A program made the position numbers and the translations under genes. From assembly GCF_900696045.1 (NCBI RefSeq), contig NZ_LR216287.1, forward strand, positions 558,001-622,000: a DNA stretch of 64,000 nucleotides. Direction: 5' to 3'. The notes beneath the pieces are model-generated. The model ran no database searches. It was not told where the DNA came from and was given only the letters and a program-made list of their open reading frames with translations. Every line of letters starts with the position of its first letter. The first letter of the stretch is position 1. This DNA comes from Candidatus Nitrosocosmicus franklandus (GTDB lineage Archaea > Thermoproteota > Nitrososphaeria > Nitrososphaerales > Nitrososphaeraceae). Below are positions 36,814 to 46,360 of the stretch, in pieces.

Positions 36814-37293
36814 TTACACATGTTTACGATCTTTAATATATCTTAAAACTTTATTTTCTAAGATATTGAATGCATCTGCCTCCACATCAATCGAGATTAA
36901 GACATAAAATTTCTGTCCATTTGAACTAACCACAGGAACTGTAGACCTCAGTATTTTATCATATTTGCCCACAGAATAAATCAAAGTACCCATATTTTTC
37001 TGGAAATCTTCTCGTAGTTCAGCTCCAAGTACTGCCTCTATGACATACAATCTTGTTTCTTCTTCATCCATCAAAGGCTGAAGTTGCTCTCTATATGAAG
37101 TAGCCAAGAGAGTTCCCATTTCGTTTGCTATTCCTACGAATCTAATAAGGTTATCCAACTCTCTGATGCGTTTACAGTGAATTATTGCAAAATCGTGATT
37201 GTTGAACTCCAATAATCTTCTATAATTATTCGATAACATTGATATTAAAATTTCGACCAAAATTATAGAAGGGATTTTCAAACTTTCTAACAT
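36814..37293 (-). CDS. DUF6659-like protein
   Basis: A 159-residue soluble protein. The pattern FVGIANEMGTLLATSYREQLQ, then DEEETRLYVIEAVLG and GTLIYSVGKYDKILRSTVPV, is that of a family frequent in Nitrososphaeria, which I know as DUF6659. The fold looks like a roadblock or profilin-like alpha-beta sensor without catalytic residues. These proteins occur in many copies per genome, often near signalling genes; here the TPR protein and the kinase cluster follow. Function is unknown. Confidence 0.65.
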   Translation of the reverse strand: MLESLKIPSIILVEILISMLSNNYRRLLEFNNHDFAIIHCKRIRELDNLIRFVGIANEMGTLLATSYREQLQPLMDEEETRLYVIEAVLGAELREDFQKNMGTLIYSVGKYDKILRSTVPVVSSNGQKFYVLISIDVEADAFNILENKVLRYIKDRKHV

Positions 37294-37437: not shown

Positions 37438-39510
37438 CTAGATCCCCATGAAGGGGATGGAAAAGCTAGGTTCTTTTTCAGAGATTTTCTTTTGTTCATT
37501 ATCTCTAGCCAGTTGTGCGTATTCAGGGTTTAAGTCTATAGCCTGATCGAGATAGAATAATGAGTCAGAAGAAGAATCGTTATCACTGCTCATGCTTTTG
37601 CAAAGGAAGCACCGATACCAAACTTCGGCAATAAGTGGATCTTGTTTTAAAATGTGTCGATATATGGAAAGAGATTCCTGGTATGATCCTAAATTCTCCA
37701 AAATGAAACCATATGTATACAGCACATCGATGTCAGTCGGGTCTATCCCCAATGCTCGTTTAATGACCTCTAAAGACTCTTCCAAACGATCAGGAAATTG
37801 AGAAGCCATAATCCAGGCTTCTCCGTTTAAGGCCCTTACATGATCTGAATCAATTTCTAGCGTTTTTTCGAAAGAGGTAATGGCTTCTGCGAATTTGGAT
37901 AGAGCTGAAAGAGACATTCCTTTGTTGTAATAAGCATCGGCAAAGTAGGGATTACTTTCTATGGCTTTGTCAAAAGAGGTAATGGCTTCTGCGAATTTGG
38001 ATAGAGCTGAAAGAGACATTCCTTTGTTGTAATAAGCATCGGCAAAGTAGGGATTACTTTCTATGGCTTTGTCAAAAGAGGTAATGGCTTCTGCGAATTT
38101 GGATAGAGCTGAAAGAGACATTCCTTTGTTGTAATAAGCATCGGCAAAGTAGGGATTACTTTCTATGGCTTTGTCAAAAGAGGTAATGGCTTCTGCGAAT
38201 TTGGATAGAGCTGAAAGAGACATTCCTTTGTTGTAATAAGCATCGGCATACTGAGGATTTATCTCAATGGCTTTGTCGTAGCATGCTATGGCCTCCTGGT
38301 TATTTCCAAGGTAATATAGCGATAGACCCTTGTTGTTGTAAGCATCGGCATACTGAGGATTTATCTCAATGGCTTTGTCGTAGCATGCTATGGCCTCCTG
38401 GTTATTCCCTGTCACAGATAGCACTATACCCTTGTTATAATAAGCAAGATCGTATTCAGGGTTTATCTCAATGGCTTTGTCGTAGCATGCTATGGCCTCA
38501 TGATTTCCAAGGTAATATAGCGATAGACCCTTGTTGTTGTAAGCATCGGCATACTGAGGATTTATCTCAATGGCTTTGTCGTAGCATGCTATGGCCTCCT
38601 GGTTATTTCCAAGGTAATATAGCGATAGACCCTTGTTGTTGTAAGCATCGGCATACTGAGGATTTATCTCAATGGCTTTGTCGTAGCATGCTATGGCCTC
38701 CTGGTTATTCCCTGTCACAGATAGCACTATACCCTTGTTATAATAAGCAAGATCGTATTCAGGGTTTATCTCAATGGCTTTGTCGTAGCATGCTATGGCC
38801 TCCTGGTTATTTCCAAGGTAATATAGCGATAGACCCTTGTTGTTGTAAGCATCGGCATACTGAGGATTTATCTCAATGGCTTTGTCGTAGCATGCTATGG
38901 CCTCCTGGTTATTCCCTGTCACAGATAGCACTATACCCTTGTTATAATAAGCAAGATCGTATTCAGGGTTTATCTCAATGGCTTTGTCGTAGCATGCTAT
39001 GGCCTCCTGGTTATTTCCAAGGTAATATAGCGATAGACCCTTGTTGTTGTAAGCATCGGCATACTGAGGATTTATCTCAGATGTTGTTTCTGCTTTGATG
39101 GCATCATTACGAACAAAATCGGAAGAAGTAGTAGTGGTTTCCTTAGGGGTTATTTTTATCTCTGGTTCATCAACAATCTTTAGAGAAATTGGATCGTCTG
39201 AAGGAATTGATTCCATTAGATGAACTAACTCCTGAATATGTTCTTCAATAGAATCGCGATGCTGATCGGAGAGTCTGATACCCTTTATTTTCTTATTAAG
39301 AATTTTATTGAGTTCATTAAATGCATCTCTGAGTTTGGGATCGAGTAATTCTAATGAATTCTTGTTAATTGATATCTGGTTATGATAATCATCATCACCA
39401 ACTTTATTAAAAGAACCTTCCTCACTATCTTTCAAGTTAGGATTGTCATAATAATTATTCACCCCATCAACGGTTTTGGGGGTTTTGTCAAATTTTTCAT
39501 CTTTCTCCAA
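37438..39510 (-). CDS. Tetratricopeptide-repeat protein with near-identical repeats
   Basis: A 690-residue scaffold protein. Residues 1-145 are charged and helical without repeats. About twelve 34-residue TPR units follow with almost no divergence: five of type A (YADAYNNKGLSLYYLG), three of type B (YDLAYYNKGIVLSVTG) and four of type C (KGMSLSALSKFAEAITSF). Three older, diverged TPRs close the protein (about 560-680). One type A unit lacks two bases' worth of a codon pair net (GNHEA for GNNQEA, a 3-nt deletion), so the frame is kept. TPRs form superhelices that bind partner proteins. No signal peptide is present, so it is cytoplasmic. Repeat number may be collapsed or variable in the assembly. 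Confidence 0.92.
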   Translation of the reverse strand: MEKDEKFDKTPKTVDGVNNYYDNPNLKDSEEGSFNKVGDDDYHNQISINKNSLELLDPKLRDAFNELNKILNKKIKGIRLSDQHRDSIEEHIQELVHLMESIPSDDPISLKIVDEPEIKITPKETTTTSSDFVRNDAIKAETTSEINPQYADAYNNKGLSLYYLGNNQEAIACYDKAIEINPEYDLAYYNKGIVLSVTGNNQEAIACYDKAIEINPQYADAYNNKGLSLYYLGNNQEAIACYDKAIEINPEYDLAYYNKGIVLSVTGNNQEAIACYDKAIEINPQYADAYNNKGLSLYYLGNNQEAIACYDKAIEINPQYADAYNNKGLSLYYLGNHEAIACYDKAIEINPEYDLAYYNKGIVLSVTGNNQEAIACYDKAIEINPQYADAYNNKGLSLYYLGNNQEAIACYDKAIEINPQYADAYYNKGMSLSALSKFAEAITSFDKAIESNPYFADAYYNKGMSLSALSKFAEAITSFDKAIESNPYFADAYYNKGMSLSALSKFAEAITSFDKAIESNPYFADAYYNKGMSLSALSKFAEAITSFEKTLEIDSDHVRALNGEAWIMASQFPDRLEESLEVIKRALGIDPTDIDVLYTYGFILENLGSYQESLSIYRHILKQDPLIAEVWYRCFLCKSMSSDNDSSSDSLFYLDQAIDLNPEYAQLARDNEQKKISEKEPSFSIPFMGI
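37874..39080. repeat. Tandem 102-bp coding repeats (TPR units)
   Basis: About twelve units of 102 bp (34 codons). The four type C units at about 37874-38260 are identical or nearly so; the type A and B units at about 38260-39080 alternate in blocks of 204 bp. Near identity at synonymous sites points to recent duplication or gene conversion. One unit is 99 bp. Confidence 0.9.
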
Positions 39511-40108: not shown

Positions 40109-40279
40109 ATGAATAAAATAACAAAAGAAATTGCTAACATTTTAGAAAGTCAAATCAATAAAGAAACTTATGAAATCCAAAACAATGGTCTCTCGGCCCA
40201 ACAACAAGAGGAAATTGCTCAATTCATAAAAATGTTCTCAAAGAATGGATTGCTACCCTTTCCATTGAAGATGAGGTAA
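40109..40279 (+). CDS. Small helical protein, 56 aa
   Basis: From ATG 40109 the protein is MNKITKEIANILESQ..., then LSAQQQEEIAQFIKMFSKNG, ending LPFPLKMR. It reads as two amphipathic helices with good composition. The frame is open from 40034, but the added 25 residues are hydrophobic A/T translation. No family is recognised. It precedes the zinc-finger microprotein by 62 bases on the same strand. Confidence 0.45.
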   Translation: MNKITKEIANILESQINKETYEIQNNGLSAQQQEEIAQFIKMFSKNGLLPFPLKMR

Positions 40280-40340: not shown

Positions 40341-40511
40341 TTGGAACGTAATAAATGCATAATATGTGGAAAACCTTACTGCAAGACGTACCCATACCGC
40401 GGCTCTGGTAGGATGGAGTTTCAAATAGATAAAAGAGAGTGTTACCTCATCTATAAGAAGTTAGCGGGAATATATGGTATTGCATACTTACAATTTCTCA
40501 CTAGATTCTGA
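40341..40511 (+). CDS. Free-standing zinc-knuckle domain, 56 aa
   Basis: A TTG start, then LERNKCIICGKPYCKTYP..., FQIDKRECYLIYKKLAGIYG. The arrangement C-x2-C-G-K, about 25 residues, then K-x2-C-Y, an aromatic and L-x3-YG matches the N-terminal domain of the histidine kinase at 43119 (NCYLCGK...HKHCYKFFNRLLSVYG). It is therefore a single-domain version of that kinase's zinc module, located 2.6 kb from it. It is below common length cut-offs. Function is unknown; it may interact with or regulate the same partner as the kinase domain. Confidence 0.5.
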   Translation: MERNKCIICGKPYCKTYPYRGSGRMEFQIDKRECYLIYKKLAGIYGIAYLQFLTRF

Positions 40512-40800
40512 ATCAACCTATTTAAAAAAAATCCTTAGCAATAAATTATCATCATTAGACGAACCCGTGAATTTCTTGTTGATTTAACATACAATAAATT
40601 GTATGATTGTTTAACGGCAATTTACATTTTATGTTAAATAAAATAAATTTTGACAAATAGAGTAGCACCAGATTTTATTCATGAAAGTTTTCTTATGGAG
40701 ACAACAGGATGCATAATTTAAAATAATATCATGTATAATCCATTGAAGGTAAATGATCTTTTTCTAAAAATTCAAATACCTGACTCAGTAATGTTTCTTA

Positions 40801-42168
40801 TTGGGTTTTATTATCAGTATTGGTTCTTTTTATAAGAATTCAAGGTTACAAACATTATCAATATCCCTTTTTATAGTCTTATTGTTTATAGATTTCTATG
40901 TTGGCTCCATTACAGATGTAGCGGTCAACTATATACAGTCACCTTTGGGTATAGGATTTTTCATTTTCTTTTTGATTACTTGTTTAATAGGAAGCACCAT
41001 CGTGATGAGAACAGTTTTTTTAATTATACGCGAAAAAAAATCAATATTTACACAGTATCAATCAGTGCTGCGTATTCTACAAATAGTAATTCTTTCTCTG
41101 TCGATTATTTTATTGCTTGATGTGATGTTAGAAAATAAATTCTATACTTTGAATTTAAACGCAATTATGGTAGCGAGTTATGGCGCCACAATTATGATGA
41201 GTATATACGTCGGTATCAAATTATTCAAATGGTATAAGGAAAACAAAAACAATTTCGCCCTTATATTTGGACTTGCAATATTTTTTCTGTTTGTAAACAA
41301 TACTGTTTCCATCTTACTGTTTAGTACATTACTCTCTGAAAAACCATTTGAGATCAATCTAAGTACTCCCGTAGTTTTTAATTTTGAGTGCGAAGATAAC
41401 TCTGCCTATTGCATATTTAAGGAAAATGTCATAAATGTTCAATCATACACCATTATAGTATATTTTGCATTGTTCTGGATAAGCACTGCATACCTATTAC
41501 ATCACCACATCAGGAAAATAGGCAAATTGCGATTCTTTACTTTGATTACAGTACCATTGGTTCTGTTTTTTTTTATGTTTGTTTATCATTACGACGAGCT
41601 CTACTCTCTCTCGGAAAATCTGAACTTTGATGAAAGCGTCATTTTTATGCTTCAGATTTTCATTGTAGCAGTCTCAATAGGAGCATGTGGTATGTTATTC
41701 GGAATAGGATTCAAGTCATTAGCTAATTTGTTAAAAATTTCATCGATTATTGAACAATATCTGAAAATGGCCTCTTATGGAATCATCATGTTGTTCATTT
41801 CAGCAAATGCAACAATAGTGGGTGTAGCATTCCCTCCATATGGAATTCCAAATATCATTTTTCTTCCTTTTGCATCCATTCTTTTTTATGTTGGATTGTA
41901 CTATTCAATAATTGCAATATCTAATGATATTAAGGTTAGGAGATTTATCAAGAATTCAGCTTACAAAGAATTAGAAATAATGGGTAATCTTGCCCAATCT
42001 CAGATGATGGACAATATGAAGGACAAGGTCCTTAAGATGACAAAAAAATACTCATCAGAGTTGCATCAGCAAAGTAATTCAGAAACCATGGAATCTGAAG
42101 AAGACTTGAAAAGTTATTTGGATGAGGCGATAAACATATTTAAATCAAAAGAAAAAGGAAATAACTAG
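40801..42168 (+). CDS. Polytopic membrane protein, paralogue of 13665 protein
   Basis: A 455-residue protein with about eight to nine transmembrane helices and a soluble tail of about 75 residues (GNLAQSQMMDNMKDKVLKMT, then EEDLKSYLDEAIN). It aligns with the 13665 protein in the last helices (FPPYGIPNI...FYVGLYYSIIA) and tail. A loop at about residues 185-220 carries two Cys (ECEDNSAYCIF) on what is probably the outside. The start is TTG 40801; a TAA lies four codons upstream. The 3' end overlaps the convergent ATPase gene by four bases. The conserved cytoplasmic tail suggests a docking surface; no transport or catalytic motif is seen. Confidence 0.75.
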   Translation: MGFIISIGSFYKNSRLQTLSISLFIVLLFIDFYVGSITDVAVNYIQSPLGIGFFIFFLITCLIGSTIVMRTVFLIIREKKSIFTQYQSVLRILQIVILSLSIILLLDVMLENKFYTLNLNAIMVASYGATIMMSIYVGIKLFKWYKENKNNFALIFGLAIFFLFVNNTVSILLFSTLLSEKPFEINLSTPVVFNFECEDNSAYCIFKENVINVQSYTIIVYFALFWISTAYLLHHHIRKIGKLRFFTLITVPLVLFFFMFVYHYDELYSLSENLNFDESVIFMLQIFIVAVSIGACGMLFGIGFKSLANLLKISSIIEQYLKMASYGIIMLFISANATIVGVAFPPYGIPNIIFLPFASILFYVGLYYSIIAISNDIKVRRFIKNSAYKELEIMGNLAQSQMMDNMKDKVLKMTKKYSSELHQQSNSETMESEEDLKSYLDEAINIFKSKEKGNN

Positions 42169-43019
42169 TTCATGTTCTCTATCTCTGTTACAAGCTTTTG
42201 AATCTTTTCCGTAAATGGATGATCTGGGAACTGATTAGCAGTCAAAAATTCTCTCTCCTTAAATTGAATATCACAATAACACGGGATCTCAATCAGAGTA
42301 TCGATATCAAAGGATTTGTCAATTATCTTTCCCAATTCGAGTTCGATCTTATTCTTAAAAAAAGAATCATTATCAACAATTTGTATTGATCGGTGCGCCG
42401 TCATACTAGATGGTACACAATATCCCGATACACGGTTCAACAAAAGTTTGCAAATAGTCCCATGTTCAATAAGGGAACCATATATTTCTTTTACCATTTT
42501 AACGGTCCCTTTTAAATCTAAATCACCCATTTTAAGTGTCAATAAAACGATATCTGAAATCACAATAGAATTGATGGACCAATATCGTATGCCAGGACTT
42601 GTATCCATCACAACAAAGTCAGCATTTTCTTCAACAAGCAATTCCTCTCTCATTGCGATAAAATTTCTAAATTGTTTAACTTGTCCCTCTCTATCGTTAA
42701 GCAAATTACCCTCCAGCTGATAAATATCCTCCTTTCCACCCCTAGAAAATCCAATTTTCAATTCCCCCTCAAGCTTTGTATCCAAGAATCTGCTAGAATC
42801 TACCATTATCGCTTTAAGATTGGCCCTATTTTTTAAATAATCATTAATCCAATACGGTGGTTCAAAGTTAAAATATGAATAAAGACTCGGTGCATAAAAA
42901 TCTAAATCTAGCAAATATACCTTATACCCCTTGGACGCCAGCCAATAAGAAAAATTAGCGGCTAAAGTGGTTTTTCCGGTACCTCCTTTGTACGAGTGAA
43001 AGGAAATACACCTTGCCAA
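42165..43019 (-). CDS. ParA/MinD-type P-loop ATPase
   Basis: A 284-residue deviant-Walker ATPase: KGGTGKTTLAANFSYWLA (Walker A with the signature Lys) at about 10-27, LLDLDFYAPSLYSYF (switch I region) and VVMDTSPGIRYWS (Walker B). This family dimerises on ATP and positions proteins, DNA or membrane complexes. Unlike plasmid ParA it has no ParB or replicon beside it. It follows the histidine kinase gene on the same strand by 99 bases, so the two are probably cotranscribed. Its 3' end overlaps that of the membrane protein gene by four bases. Confidence 0.9.
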   Translation of the reverse strand: MARCISFHSYKGGTGKTTLAANFSYWLASKGYKVYLLDLDFYAPSLYSYFNFEPPYWINDYLKNRANLKAIMVDSSRFLDTKLEGELKIGFSRGGKEDIYQLEGNLLNDREGQVKQFRNFIAMREELLVEENADFVVMDTSPGIRYWSINSIVISDIVLLTLKMGDLDLKGTVKMVKEIYGSLIEHGTICKLLLNRVSGYCVPSSMTAHRSIQIVDNDSFFKNKIELELGKIIDKSFDIDTLIEIPCYCDIQFKEREFLTANQFPDHPFTEKIQKLVTEIENMN

Positions 43020-43118
43020 TCACTTTACTTCATGTATTCATCTAAAATACTTTTGCAATTTGCAGCAGAATAATTAATATACTAGGAAGGTTGTCACTTG
43101 GAGATAATTTGACAATTT

Positions 43119-44594
43119 TCATAACGGTAAATCGATTTTGAAAACACTCCCCACTCCATCTTTATTGTTCATTGCCCTTATACTCCCTCCATGCTTTGTA
43201 ATAATTATTTTAGAGATATAAAGACCTAGTCCAGTTCCAAGCTTATCTGTTGTAAAAAATCTTGAGAAAATTTTGTTAAGATTCTTTTCGTCAATACCGC
43301 AACCGGTGTCTCTAATTTCCATATGAACATAATTGTCTAATTTTTCCACTGTTAGATCTATCTGTCCTCTCTCAGTGAACTTTACTGCGTTACCGATTAG
43401 ATTATCTAGAACTTCGACAATTCGTACTTTATCTGCTTTAATATATAGAGGCTTTTCAAAATACCTTAAATTCAGTGCAAGTTTTTTCTGATTCAGTTGG
43501 ATACTATAATCAGATACTAATTCCTGTAATATCTTTATTAAATCAAAAGTCTCATGGTTTAGTCTAAAATTTTTATTTTCCATCCTAGCATAATCAAGAA
43601 TATTATTAGTCATAATGTCCAATTTTCTGGCATTTCTGGAAATAATTTTTAAAAGTTCATTCTTTTGATCCGGATCCAATCGAGAATTGTTTTGGATCAT
43701 ATCTGAGAATCCAAGGATGGGTTGAATTGGATTCTTTAATTCGTGAGCCAGAATTCTTACATAATTAGTATTGGGACTAACATCCTCTCTCATTTTAGTT
43801 GACAAATGTTTAATTTTACTTTCCAAAATCGACTGCTTCCATAAGCTCTCAAATGCTGCTGCAGCATGCCAAGACATTGATTCCTTTTTGGAAACAATAT
43901 TCAGATACCTTTTATAATTAATTTTCCGATTGTTATCCCCATCCTGACGCAATCGTGGTTCAGACAAAAAGGTAACAGAGCGATCAAAAAGAGCTAAGAA
44001 ATAATTATTCTTATTATCATTGATATAATTTACTTTAATATTCGGTATTTCACTAATATGTAATTTTTCAAGTAGCCCGACACCCGCTTTATTCTTAACC
44101 AAGAGAATTCGTATTTCGGTTTTGAAAAACTTGCTCTCTATCAAAGGTTTGATCGCACCATCCAAGAGGCTTCCAAATTTTCTAAATATTAGACTGTTTG
44201 AAAATAAAATGTCGATTGATGTATCTGCGCGAGCAAATTCTGTCAAAAATAAACGTCTAAAGGATGTTAAATCAGAAACCACTTCTGACTTTAGGTATTT
44301 AGAATTCTTTATATCGAACAAGGATAGCTCGAGCAAATCTCCTCTTTCATATCCTAAACCCCATTTGACACGATCCAGTTCCAAATGAGAAAAATCATCA
44401 CCATAAACGGACAATAATCTATTAAAAAACTTGTAACAATGTTTATGGTGAAACCTCCTGATTCCTTCCTCTGAAAGATCAGAGTACGTTTCTGCCTGAC
44501 TTTCTATTAGTTTACCGCAAAGGTAACAATTCTTACCGATTTTGGGTATTGCACCTTTTGAGTTTGATTCAGACGTGGTTGGAATATTAAACAT
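43119..44594 (-). CDS. Sensor histidine kinase with zinc and PLD-like sensor domains
   Basis: A cytosolic kinase of 491 residues without membrane helices. Residues about 17-50 are a zinc domain (NCYLCGK ... HKHCYKFFNRLL). Residues about 100-240 resemble a phospholipase-D-like or TrmB-like sensor (DTSIDILFSNS, then NKNNYFLALFDRSVTFL) without the catalytic HKD. Residues about 275-345 form a HisKA domain with the phospho-accepting His in LAHELKNPIQ. Residues about 375-491 form an HATPase (N box NLIGNAVKF, G1 DTGCGID, G2 GTGLGLY). It heads a two-gene unit with the ParA-like ATPase and is divergent from the ATP-grasp/response-regulator pair 92 bp away. The likely phosphoacceptor is the regulator at 45986. 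Confidence 0.92.
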   Translation of the reverse strand: MFNIPTTSESNSKGAIPKIGKNCYLCGKLIESQAETYSDLSEEGIRRFHHKHCYKFFNRLLSVYGDDFSHLELDRVKWGLGYERGDLLELSLFDIKNSKYLKSEVVSDLTSFRRLFLTEFARADTSIDILFSNSLIFRKFGSLLDGAIKPLIESKFFKTEIRILLVKNKAGVGLLEKLHISEIPNIKVNYINDNKNNYFLALFDRSVTFLSEPRLRQDGDNNRKINYKRYLNIVSKKESMSWHAAAAFESLWKQSILESKIKHLSTKMREDVSPNTNYVRILAHELKNPIQPILGFSDMIQNNSRLDPDQKNELLKIISRNARKLDIMTNNILDYARMENKNFRLNHETFDLIKILQELVSDYSIQLNQKKLALNLRYFEKPLYIKADKVRIVEVLDNLIGNAVKFTERGQIDLTVEKLDNYVHMEIRDTGCGIDEKNLNKIFSRFFTTDKLGTGLGLYISKIIITKHGGSIRAMNNKDGVGSVFKIDLPL

Positions 44595-44686
44595 TAATAT
44601 AAATAATTAAATAAACTTATCTTCACATGTTGAATCGTTCTTTATTTTATTAAAAAAATTTTTATTCACATGGATCAAGGTAATAT

Positions 44687-45781
44687 GTGACCAAAAGACC
44701 ACTGATGTTTAATTTTTTACAAAAATTGGATTATAAAGATGTTTTAAGAAGAAATACTAATCCTCTAGAGTTATTAGATAAACTCAACATCAGTGATACG
44801 GGAAGTAATCAGGTTTCACCCAAGGTATTGATACTAACAAAAAAATTAGATATTGAAGCAGACGTGATTGGAATAAAATTATTAAAAAATGGAATAGACT
44901 ACATCAAGATTAATGAAGAAGATATTCCATTAGACTTTGGCGTTGAATTTAGGGTCGGAAGCAAAAGAGAACTTTTTCTAAAATTAAGACACAAAGAAAT
45001 ATTAGCCGAAAATATCAAAGTGGTTTTGTTTAGATACTTTGACCCAAAATTTTTGAAATATCTTGATGGTATCCATCAAATGTTTTTTGAACAACAGTGG
45101 TACCAATTACTTAATTGTTTGCAGACATCACTAATGTGTCAATGGATCAACAATCCTAAGAATACATTCGAAGCAGAAAATAGATTATATCAATTAAAAG
45201 TCGCTCAGGACTTAGGTTTTAGGATACCCGATACCTCTATCACAAATATTCCTTTCTCAGGAATAAAATTCTTTGATCAATGTTCTAAAAATATAGTTGC
45301 TAAAGTACTTCATCATCATGAAATTGTATATGACGAATATTCATATAGGTTTCCTACAAGCGTTATCAATTCGAATCATTTTTTAGAATCAGATGAGTTA
45401 AAGTATGCTCCCGTGATTCTTCAAGAAAGGATAGACATTAGTGAGGAGATTCGGATAACAGTTGTCGACCAAAAGGTTTACCCCGTTCGAATTACTGCTA
45501 ATAAATATAAGAATAATTACTCCGATCTTCACAAAATCGAAGAAAAGTTCTTAAATTTTGAGCGTATCTCCATTGAAAAAAATTTGGAGAAATTGTGCAT
45601 TAATCTAAATAGGAAAATGGGGTTACTATTATCCAGTATAGATTTAGTGGTTAACAAGAAGGGAGAAATACATTTTCTTGAAATTAATCCTATAGGAGAT
45701 TGGAATTGGCTCGAAAAGCACGTTGATTTAGGGATTGCTGACTCGATATCTGAACTGATCTCACGTTTTGTAGAAAAGTAA
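44687..45781 (+). CDS. MvdD-like ATP-grasp ligase
   Basis: A 364-residue ATP-grasp enzyme. After an N-terminal Rossmann-like part (about 45-120) come QWINNPKNTFEAENRLYQL (the W-x-N-P..E..L pattern of MvdD/graspetide ligases) and LGFRIPDTSITN. ILQERIDISEEIRITVV (nucleotide binding) and LEINPIGDWNWLE (Mg-binding Glu/Asn with the Trp-rich end) follow. Such enzymes make amide or ester bonds on peptides. No precursor peptide with the usual Thr/Glu core is visible nearby. The start is GTG 44687; ATG 44705 is an alternative. It is divergent from the kinase gene and 204 bases upstream of the response regulator. A role in modifying a protein in this signalling cluster is inference. Confidence 0.82.
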   Translation: MTKRPLMFNFLQKLDYKDVLRRNTNPLELLDKLNISDTGSNQVSPKVLILTKKLDIEADVIGIKLLKNGIDYIKINEEDIPLDFGVEFRVGSKRELFLKLRHKEILAENIKVVLFRYFDPKFLKYLDGIHQMFFEQQWYQLLNCLQTSLMCQWINNPKNTFEAENRLYQLKVAQDLGFRIPDTSITNIPFSGIKFFDQCSKNIVAKVLHHHEIVYDEYSYRFPTSVINSNHFLESDELKYAPVILQERIDISEEIRITVVDQKVYPVRITANKYKNNYSDLHKIEEKFLNFERISIEKNLEKLCINLNRKMGLLLSSIDLVVNKKGEIHFLEINPIGDWNWLEKHVDLGIADSISELISRFVEK

Positions 45782-45985
45782 ACATAAACTATTCAGAAAA
45801 ATAGATTCATTTTCATCGTGTTTACCTCTTTAAAGTATCTATTGTAATAGATAGGTTGTAAGCTTTTCTATCCGTCAATTCAACTTTTTTTATAAAATCC
45901 AAGTTTGATTTTCATTTCTGAAAATTACTTGTACCTAAATGTAAAAATATTTTAATTGGTATCACAAATACTAACTTATTCTGTA

Positions 45986-46360
45986 ATGGGAAATAATATC
46001 TTAATAGTAGATGATGATGTAGGGACAGCATTATTTTTTAAAATTTGCCTGGAAGATGTGGGTCATCAAGTAACCATATTCAATGATCCAGGTTCGTTAC
46101 TAGAGGAATTTGAACCAGGTGTATATGATTTATTAATTACAGATATCAGAATGCCGAGGATAAATGGCTTTGAGCTGGCCAGCAGGATAAGAATAATGGA
46201 TAGTAAAATTAGGATTTGTCTTGCTACAGCATTTGAAGAATACTATCAATCAATTATAAAATCTTATTCAGATTTGAGTTTTAACTGTATTATAAGAAAG
46301 CCCATAAATAAAGATAGTTTTTTAGAAATCGTTGAGAATAGATTGAAGCAGCCAAAATAG
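45986..46360 (+). CDS. Single-domain response regulator
   Basis: A receiver domain of 124 residues from ATG 45986 (MGNNILIVDDD). It has the acidic pocket VDDD, the phospho-acceptor Asp in LLITDIRMPRI, the Thr/Ala switch region ICLATAF and the conserved Lys in IRKPINK. There is no output domain, so it acts by binding a partner, as CheY does. The frame extends upstream to TTG 45956, but the ATG fits the fold. It follows the ATP-grasp gene and is the natural partner of the kinase at 43119. Confidence 0.93.
   Translation: MGNNILIVDDDVGTALFFKICLEDVGHQVTIFNDPGSLLEEFEPGVYDLLITDIRMPRINGFELASRIRIMDSKIRICLATAFEEYYQSIIKSYSDLSFNCIIRKPINKDSFLEIVENRLKQPK

Follow-up and report, generated by a model that had tools for sequence, protein, structure and literature searches.

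A candidate lineage-specific membrane signaling locus in Candidatus Nitrosocosmicus with a putatively leader-fused graspetide-type ligase

Gene content of the locus

The window, a stretch of 64,000 nucleotides, corresponds to positions 558001 to 622000 (forward strand) of the 2.84-Mb, single-contig genome of Candidatus Nitrosocosmicus franklandus; coordinates given below without a locus name count from its first letter. An earlier note on this DNA had proposed a signaling system of five genes, all of which are real open reading frames (ORFs) at the positions reported there. They encode a polytopic membrane protein (40801..42168, plus strand; about 10 transmembrane helices followed by a cytosolic helical tail), a ParA/MinD-like ATPase (42165..43019, minus strand; Pfam AAA_31, E = 8e-18), a cytosolic histidine kinase (43119..44594, minus strand; HisKA, 3e-12; HATPase_c, 3e-25), a graspetide-synthetase-type ATP-grasp ligase with a 45-amino-acid (aa) N-terminal extension (44687..45781, plus strand; RimK-like ATP-grasp, 2e-6; MvdC profile, 9e-51) and a CheY-like response regulator consisting of a stand-alone REC domain (45956..46360, plus strand; Response_reg, 5e-18), with domain calls based on Pfam and NCBIfam profiles. 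The genes for the membrane protein and the ATPase indeed share a 4-base overlap (42165-42168), and the kinase and ligase genes are divergent, with starts 92 bp apart.

Two conserved small genes, both upstream of the membrane-protein gene and on the same strand, had been overlooked. The first (40109..40279, plus strand) encodes a protein of 56 aa (56 to 57 aa across orthologues) with a helix-like N terminus and an invariant C-terminal [FY]PLKx[RK], which we consider a candidate ligase substrate. The second (40341..40511, plus strand) encodes a stand-alone CxxC...C (YHS-like treble-clef) protein of 55 aa, the domain being that of the kinase N terminus. Substitutions are clearly concentrated at third codon positions in the 56-aa gene and less clearly so in the 55-aa gene. 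A possible extra member is a DUF6659-protein homologue (36814..37293, minus strand), separated from the ATPase gene by several genes; the Pfam DUF6659 match itself is to a paralogue of this protein, which adjoins the genome's second ATPase gene. A TPR protein whose tandem repeats are almost the same as one another is encoded at 37438-39510 (minus strand), with a long antisense ORF at 38283-39098; its orthologues differ strongly in length, from 413 to 820 aa on uncut contigs. Interpretation of the locus as a defense system was rejected, the PADLOC matches being weak and to P-loop models only.

Conservation within Ca. Nitrosocosmicus

As far as contigs allow (contig ends split off the regulator in G128 and G137 and several genes in G197), 10 of the 15 Ca. 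Nitrosocosmicus genomes keep the order of the seven genes, and the ligase is likewise present in 10 of the 15. ATPase, kinase and membrane protein are found on one contig and in the same order in nine of the 10 ligase-bearing genomes; the 56-aa protein is conserved in nine of 10 locus-bearing genomes, the tenth (G137) being hidden by a contig end, and the CxxC...C small protein is conserved in the genus as well. The five remaining genomes yielded no ligase, nor did they yield close relatives for the membrane protein, the kinase, the regulator or the small protein, and the ATPases encoded there are paralogues with at most about 50% identity. In four of these five, the dodecin-rhodanese-glmS right flank is intact without the locus; the orthologous flank was not found in G134. 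Probably, the joint absence of the locus genes reflects one event, a single gain or loss. The linkage that the earlier note named as a check is real insofar as the genes are present or absent together, but it lies inside a longer region of 33 to 53 kb that is collinear in the whole genus, where dodecin, rhodanese, glmS and others also hold their order, and this makes synteny within the genus weak evidence of function. The stronger evidence of linkage comes from other genera, in which ATPase, YHS-kinase, membrane protein, regulator and YHS protein again occur together but in different orders.

The signaling genes as one version of a wider family

The kinase combines an N-terminal CxxCG..C domain and a sensor-like middle part with HisKA (AHELKNP) and HATPase_c; the hallmarks of a two-component system, i.e., the HisKA histidine, the HATPase boxes and a REC domain, are all present. 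Identity across the genus amounts to 83 to 96% for the regulator and only 43 to 71% for the linked kinase, and with conservation this much better, the regulator may serve further partners. The membrane protein matched no Pfam or NCBIfam family above cutoff, and its model matched no fold in the PDB. It is homologous to the membrane portion at the N terminus of a 1015-aa histidine kinase encoded in the same genome, in which a member of the membrane-protein family is fused to HisKA-HATPase_c within one polypeptide, a fusion suggesting that the stand-alone membrane protein is a sensor partner of the kinase.

The ATPase has the features expected of a ParA/MinD protein, with the deviant Walker A motif KGGTGKTT, including the signature lysine, and Walker B motif DTSPG both invariant. 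Further invariants of the subfamily (HSYKGGTGKTT, DLDxYAPS, GYC.P, PCYCDIQF and HPF) include three cysteines that could bind a metal. We surveyed the neighbors within 3 kb of ATPase-family genes at 70 further loci. A KaiC-cyclase-type protein was present at 35 of the 70 and a DUF6659-like protein at 22; the YHS-like domain was found in fused form at 24 loci and as a stand-alone protein at 13, a response regulator at 15 and a kinase at 10. The membrane-protein family was represented at 10 loci, where about one would be expected at 3.7 copies per genome (hand estimate), and ParB adjoined five of the 70 paralogous ATPases. Genus g3 has YHS-kinase, regulator, ATPase and ParB in that order on one strand; operons of this composition were observed in other Nitrososphaeraceae at L135:7822-11658 and at L136, L137 and L138, with the regulator of L138 on the opposite strand. 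At half of the loci, a KaiC-like ATPase, a CxxC domain and a class III nucleotide cyclase are joined in a single protein adjoining the ParA-like ATPase (e.g., L133:6061-7494 and L138:3388-4803).

The deviant Walker A motif is shared with archaeal SegA and MinD4 and bacterial ParA, and relatives of the ATPase adjoin ParB genes. Unlike in those systems, no ParB partner is encoded at the Nitrosocosmicus locus, which does not qualify as a ParAB partition system; in addition, the subfamily has the invariant GYC and PCYCDIQF and is partnered with kinases and KaiC-cyclase fusions. A HisKA-HATPase kinase with a stand-alone REC protein is known from archaeal two-component systems (PMC5847659), and KaiC fusions adjoining paralogous ATPases fit the concept of KaiC as a signaling hub. 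What differs from the systems of PMC5847659 is the YHS domain, which a word search did not find in that paper, and the ParA-like ATPase partner and ligase, which we did not find described. Nor did the literature searched, which covered few subscription journals, contain an account of the archaeal ATPase/kinase module or of the combination of genes that had struck the earlier reader as new. The system appears to be undescribed, as the note had suggested, but it is not unique: the signaling part seems to be one version of a widespread, modular and apparently undescribed Nitrososphaeraceae family. This ATPase/YHS/KaiC-cyclase/ParB/kinase architecture would be a finding separate from the ligase.

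Identity of the ligase

The best PDB matches of the ligase are CdnC, AMdnB, MdnC, PruB and PsnB, each ahead of RimK (Foldseek against CdnC, E = 5e-25), and RimK was rejected as the nearest family, since graspetide synthetases score far better by both profile and fold. The active-site residues K206, R256, D319, E332 and N334 are invariant across 11 ligase sequences. With 172.9 bits against an NCBIfam equivalog cutoff of 425 for MvdC, and 160 against 350 for SAV_5884, the predicted enzyme is a relative of the MvdC/MvdD type rather than an equivalog. The MvdD-like "peptide-type ligase" of the earlier note can therefore be specified as an MvdC/MvdD-type graspetide synthetase; it is not a generic peptide ligase, and its N terminus carries a leader-like motif.

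In a maximum-likelihood tree, the ten Nitrosocosmicus enzymes and one from another Nitrososphaeraceae genus (G176) form a clade on a long stem (support, 100/99), separate from the remaining archaeal members included. The G176 gene is decayed and broken into two frames; it adjoins a membrane-protein homologue, an arrangement with a chance of less than 1%, given 16 copies in 3.9 Mb (hand estimate).

A leader-like motif in the N-terminal extension

The 45-aa extension is conserved in all ten Nitrosocosmicus ligases and absent from the bacterial relatives examined. It opens with a motif of consensus P-[FLY]-x-F-N-F-x-[EQ] (44699..44722, plus strand; residues 5 to 12), which reads PLMFNFLQ in the window and PFxFNFLE in most orthologues, versus PFFARFLE in the microviridin leader; the ligase would have a motif of the PFFARFL type presented to it in cis. 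The sister enzyme of G176 also has the extension, with PLLCQFLD as its motif. In three bacterial relatives, the gene for the precursor (PFFARFLE, PFFANFLE or PFFEKFLE) immediately precedes that for the ligase on the same strand, such that loss of the core region would fuse the leader to the ligase. In a motif scan, 7 of 10 orthologues scored 26 to 32, always at residues 5 to 8, and 1 of 1,540 background ORFs scored at least 25, figures to be read with the motif having been noticed post hoc and the orthologues not being independent of one another. The window's own copy scores 23, and about 0.3% of the background reaches 22.

The general graspetide leader motif has been given as Phhx(1,2)h (PMC8939145), and in MdnC, the acidic pair E191/D192 binds the leader arginine (PMC7823629, a review). 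This pair is not kept in the ligases of the Nitrosocosmicus clade, which mostly have N/S/D plus H/S/M, and the position of the leader arginine is occupied by N in the extension motif; arginine and acidic pair have both changed, albeit in few cases. In the AlphaFold model of the ligase, confidence in this segment is too low to place the motif in the leader groove. Between motif and catalytic body lies a spacer of 33 residues. In an artificial construct, a leader fused via a 30-aa linker rendered MvdC and MvdD constitutively active (PMC9826346). With these LP-MvdD and LP-MvdC fusions, the locus ligase shares the arrangement of leader-like motif, spacer and ligase body; in contrast to them, it is natural and diverged in sequence, and its activity is putative. 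The motif suggests that the ligase is naturally leader-fused and would need no leader on its substrate. A natural leader-fused graspetide synthetase was not found in the literature searched (few subscription journals covered).

Candidate substrates

The earlier statement that no precursor peptide is encoded nearby holds as far as canonical graspetide precursors are concerned: no leader with a Thr/Ser/Lys plus Asp/Glu core was found among the ORFs near the ligase gene. We conjecture that the PLK-tailed 56-aa protein is the best candidate substrate. In a profile search of 70 family genomes, full-length matches to it occurred only in nine ligase-bearing genomes, and weaker paralogues elsewhere in these genomes are missing the PLKx[RK] tail. 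K3, E7 and K54 are invariant, and the tail has no Thr/Ser/Asp/Glu core; lacking a microviridin-like core, the protein could only be crosslinked in a new way. Tail-less paralogues were also seen beside short proteins predicted to be secreted or to lie in the membrane (L325:8944-9123, L326:8946-9107, L327:9272-9433 and L331:366-527).

Proposed mechanism and alternative explanations

Our preferred reading, to which we give a probability of roughly 0.45, is that the locus encodes a lineage-specific membrane signaling unit of Ca. Nitrosocosmicus with a leader-activated graspetide-type ligase. The membrane protein would represent the sensor half that has become detached in a split sensor kinase and would couple through its tail to the cytosolic YHS-domain kinase, which would phosphorylate the linked CheY-like regulator; the ParA-like ATPase may localize or assemble the complex via an ATP-driven dimer cycle. 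The ATP-grasp protein, by homology and fold a graspetide (microviridin-type) ligase of the class that makes ester or amide side-chain crosslinks, would be activated in cis by the microviridin-leader-like helix motif of its extension, as the motif data support, and could then act on a leaderless substrate. That substrate might be one of the small proteins encoded at the locus, the PLK-tailed one being the likeliest, with the covalent crosslink perhaps setting or locking the signaling state. The bolder claim, that this is the first case in nature of a leader-fused (self-activated) graspetide synthetase, moved into archaeal kinase/ParA signaling and crosslinking a signaling protein instead of a peptide product, seems rather unlikely to us at present.

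The leading competitor, which we regard as somewhat unlikely, is that the genes are mere neighbors, with a horizontally acquired ligase modifying a conventional precursor encoded elsewhere and with kinase, ATPase and membrane protein as a separate signaling unit. Genus-wide collinearity makes synteny cheap, the ligase gene has a divergent transcript of its own, and other archaeal ligases of this type adjoin conventional precursor-like ORFs; yet in another genus, the sister ligase is likewise an immediate neighbor of a membrane-protein homologue, and no small ORF with a leader was found close to the ligase, whose own sequence contains the leader motif. Alternatively, the extension could be a regulatory or docking segment, e.g., for the kinase or the regulator, and its likeness to microviridin leaders convergent. 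The low AlphaFold confidence (pLDDT below 50 for residues 1 to 38), the loss of the acidic leader-pocket residues and conservation that extends past the motif (..NTNPLELLDRLNI) would agree with this. On the other side, PFVFNFLE is identical at 6 of 8 residues to PFFANFLE, the leader in the precursor of a bacterial relative, and motif position and linker length are as in the engineered leader fusions; we consider this alternative unlikely.

Two further proposals concern what the ligase does, and both strike us as improbable. It might be RimK/LysX-like and add amino acids to a carrier or protein C terminus, such as the PLKx[RK] tail: there is a RimK-like Pfam match, the small locus protein has an invariant C terminus, and ArgX and LysX, which act on a small carrier protein, are structural neighbors, all of which is set against the large lead of graspetide synthetases by profile and fold. 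Or, as the earlier note had suggested, it might modify the membrane protein at its cytosolic tail, which is acidic and rich in hydroxyl groups and carries SETxE[ST]EEDL in orthologues. This idea found no specific support, as related tails occur in paralogues without a ligase and the Ser/Thr-acid patch is altered in one ligase-bearing orthologue (L126), and the 40109-40279 protein is the better candidate.

If the preferred reading of a leader-activated ligase within a signaling unit is true, an enzyme class that forms macrocycles in secreted peptides acts on endogenous signaling proteins in an archaeon, and the leader-ligase fusion built by chemists was also made by nature. The host is a soil ammonia-oxidizing archaeon that matters for nitrogen cycling in soils, and the ligase offers a directly testable enzyme.

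Relation to other graspetide synthetases

With MdnC/MdnB (MvdD/MvdC), AMdnB and CdnC, the locus ligase shares the fold, the ATP-grasp active site, the best sequence and structure matches and a PFFARFLE-type leader motif; unlike them, it has this motif in its own N terminus, signaling genes as neighbors, no precursor gene and no acidic leader-binding pair. Archaeal graspetide group 36 (Thermoprotea; PMC13097080) likewise comprises an archaeal ligase in the vicinity of a protein with weak similarity to a chromosome-segregation protein, but that group, unlike the Nitrosocosmicus locus, was defined with precursor peptides. In Nitrosopumilus sp. HKST02, a partial ORF with repeats PRRDIPKMPFRDTYP (L130:2-298; also seen in L240) lies directly upstream of a graspetide synthetase gene (L130:320-1261) and likely encodes a multi-core graspetide precursor of this marine ammonia-oxidizing archaeon. 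A second archaeal graspetide synthetase (L328:2653-4063; G217) has a short upstream ORF with PFILATPH, which resembles APFVLSTPH of L130 and may point to a shared leader.
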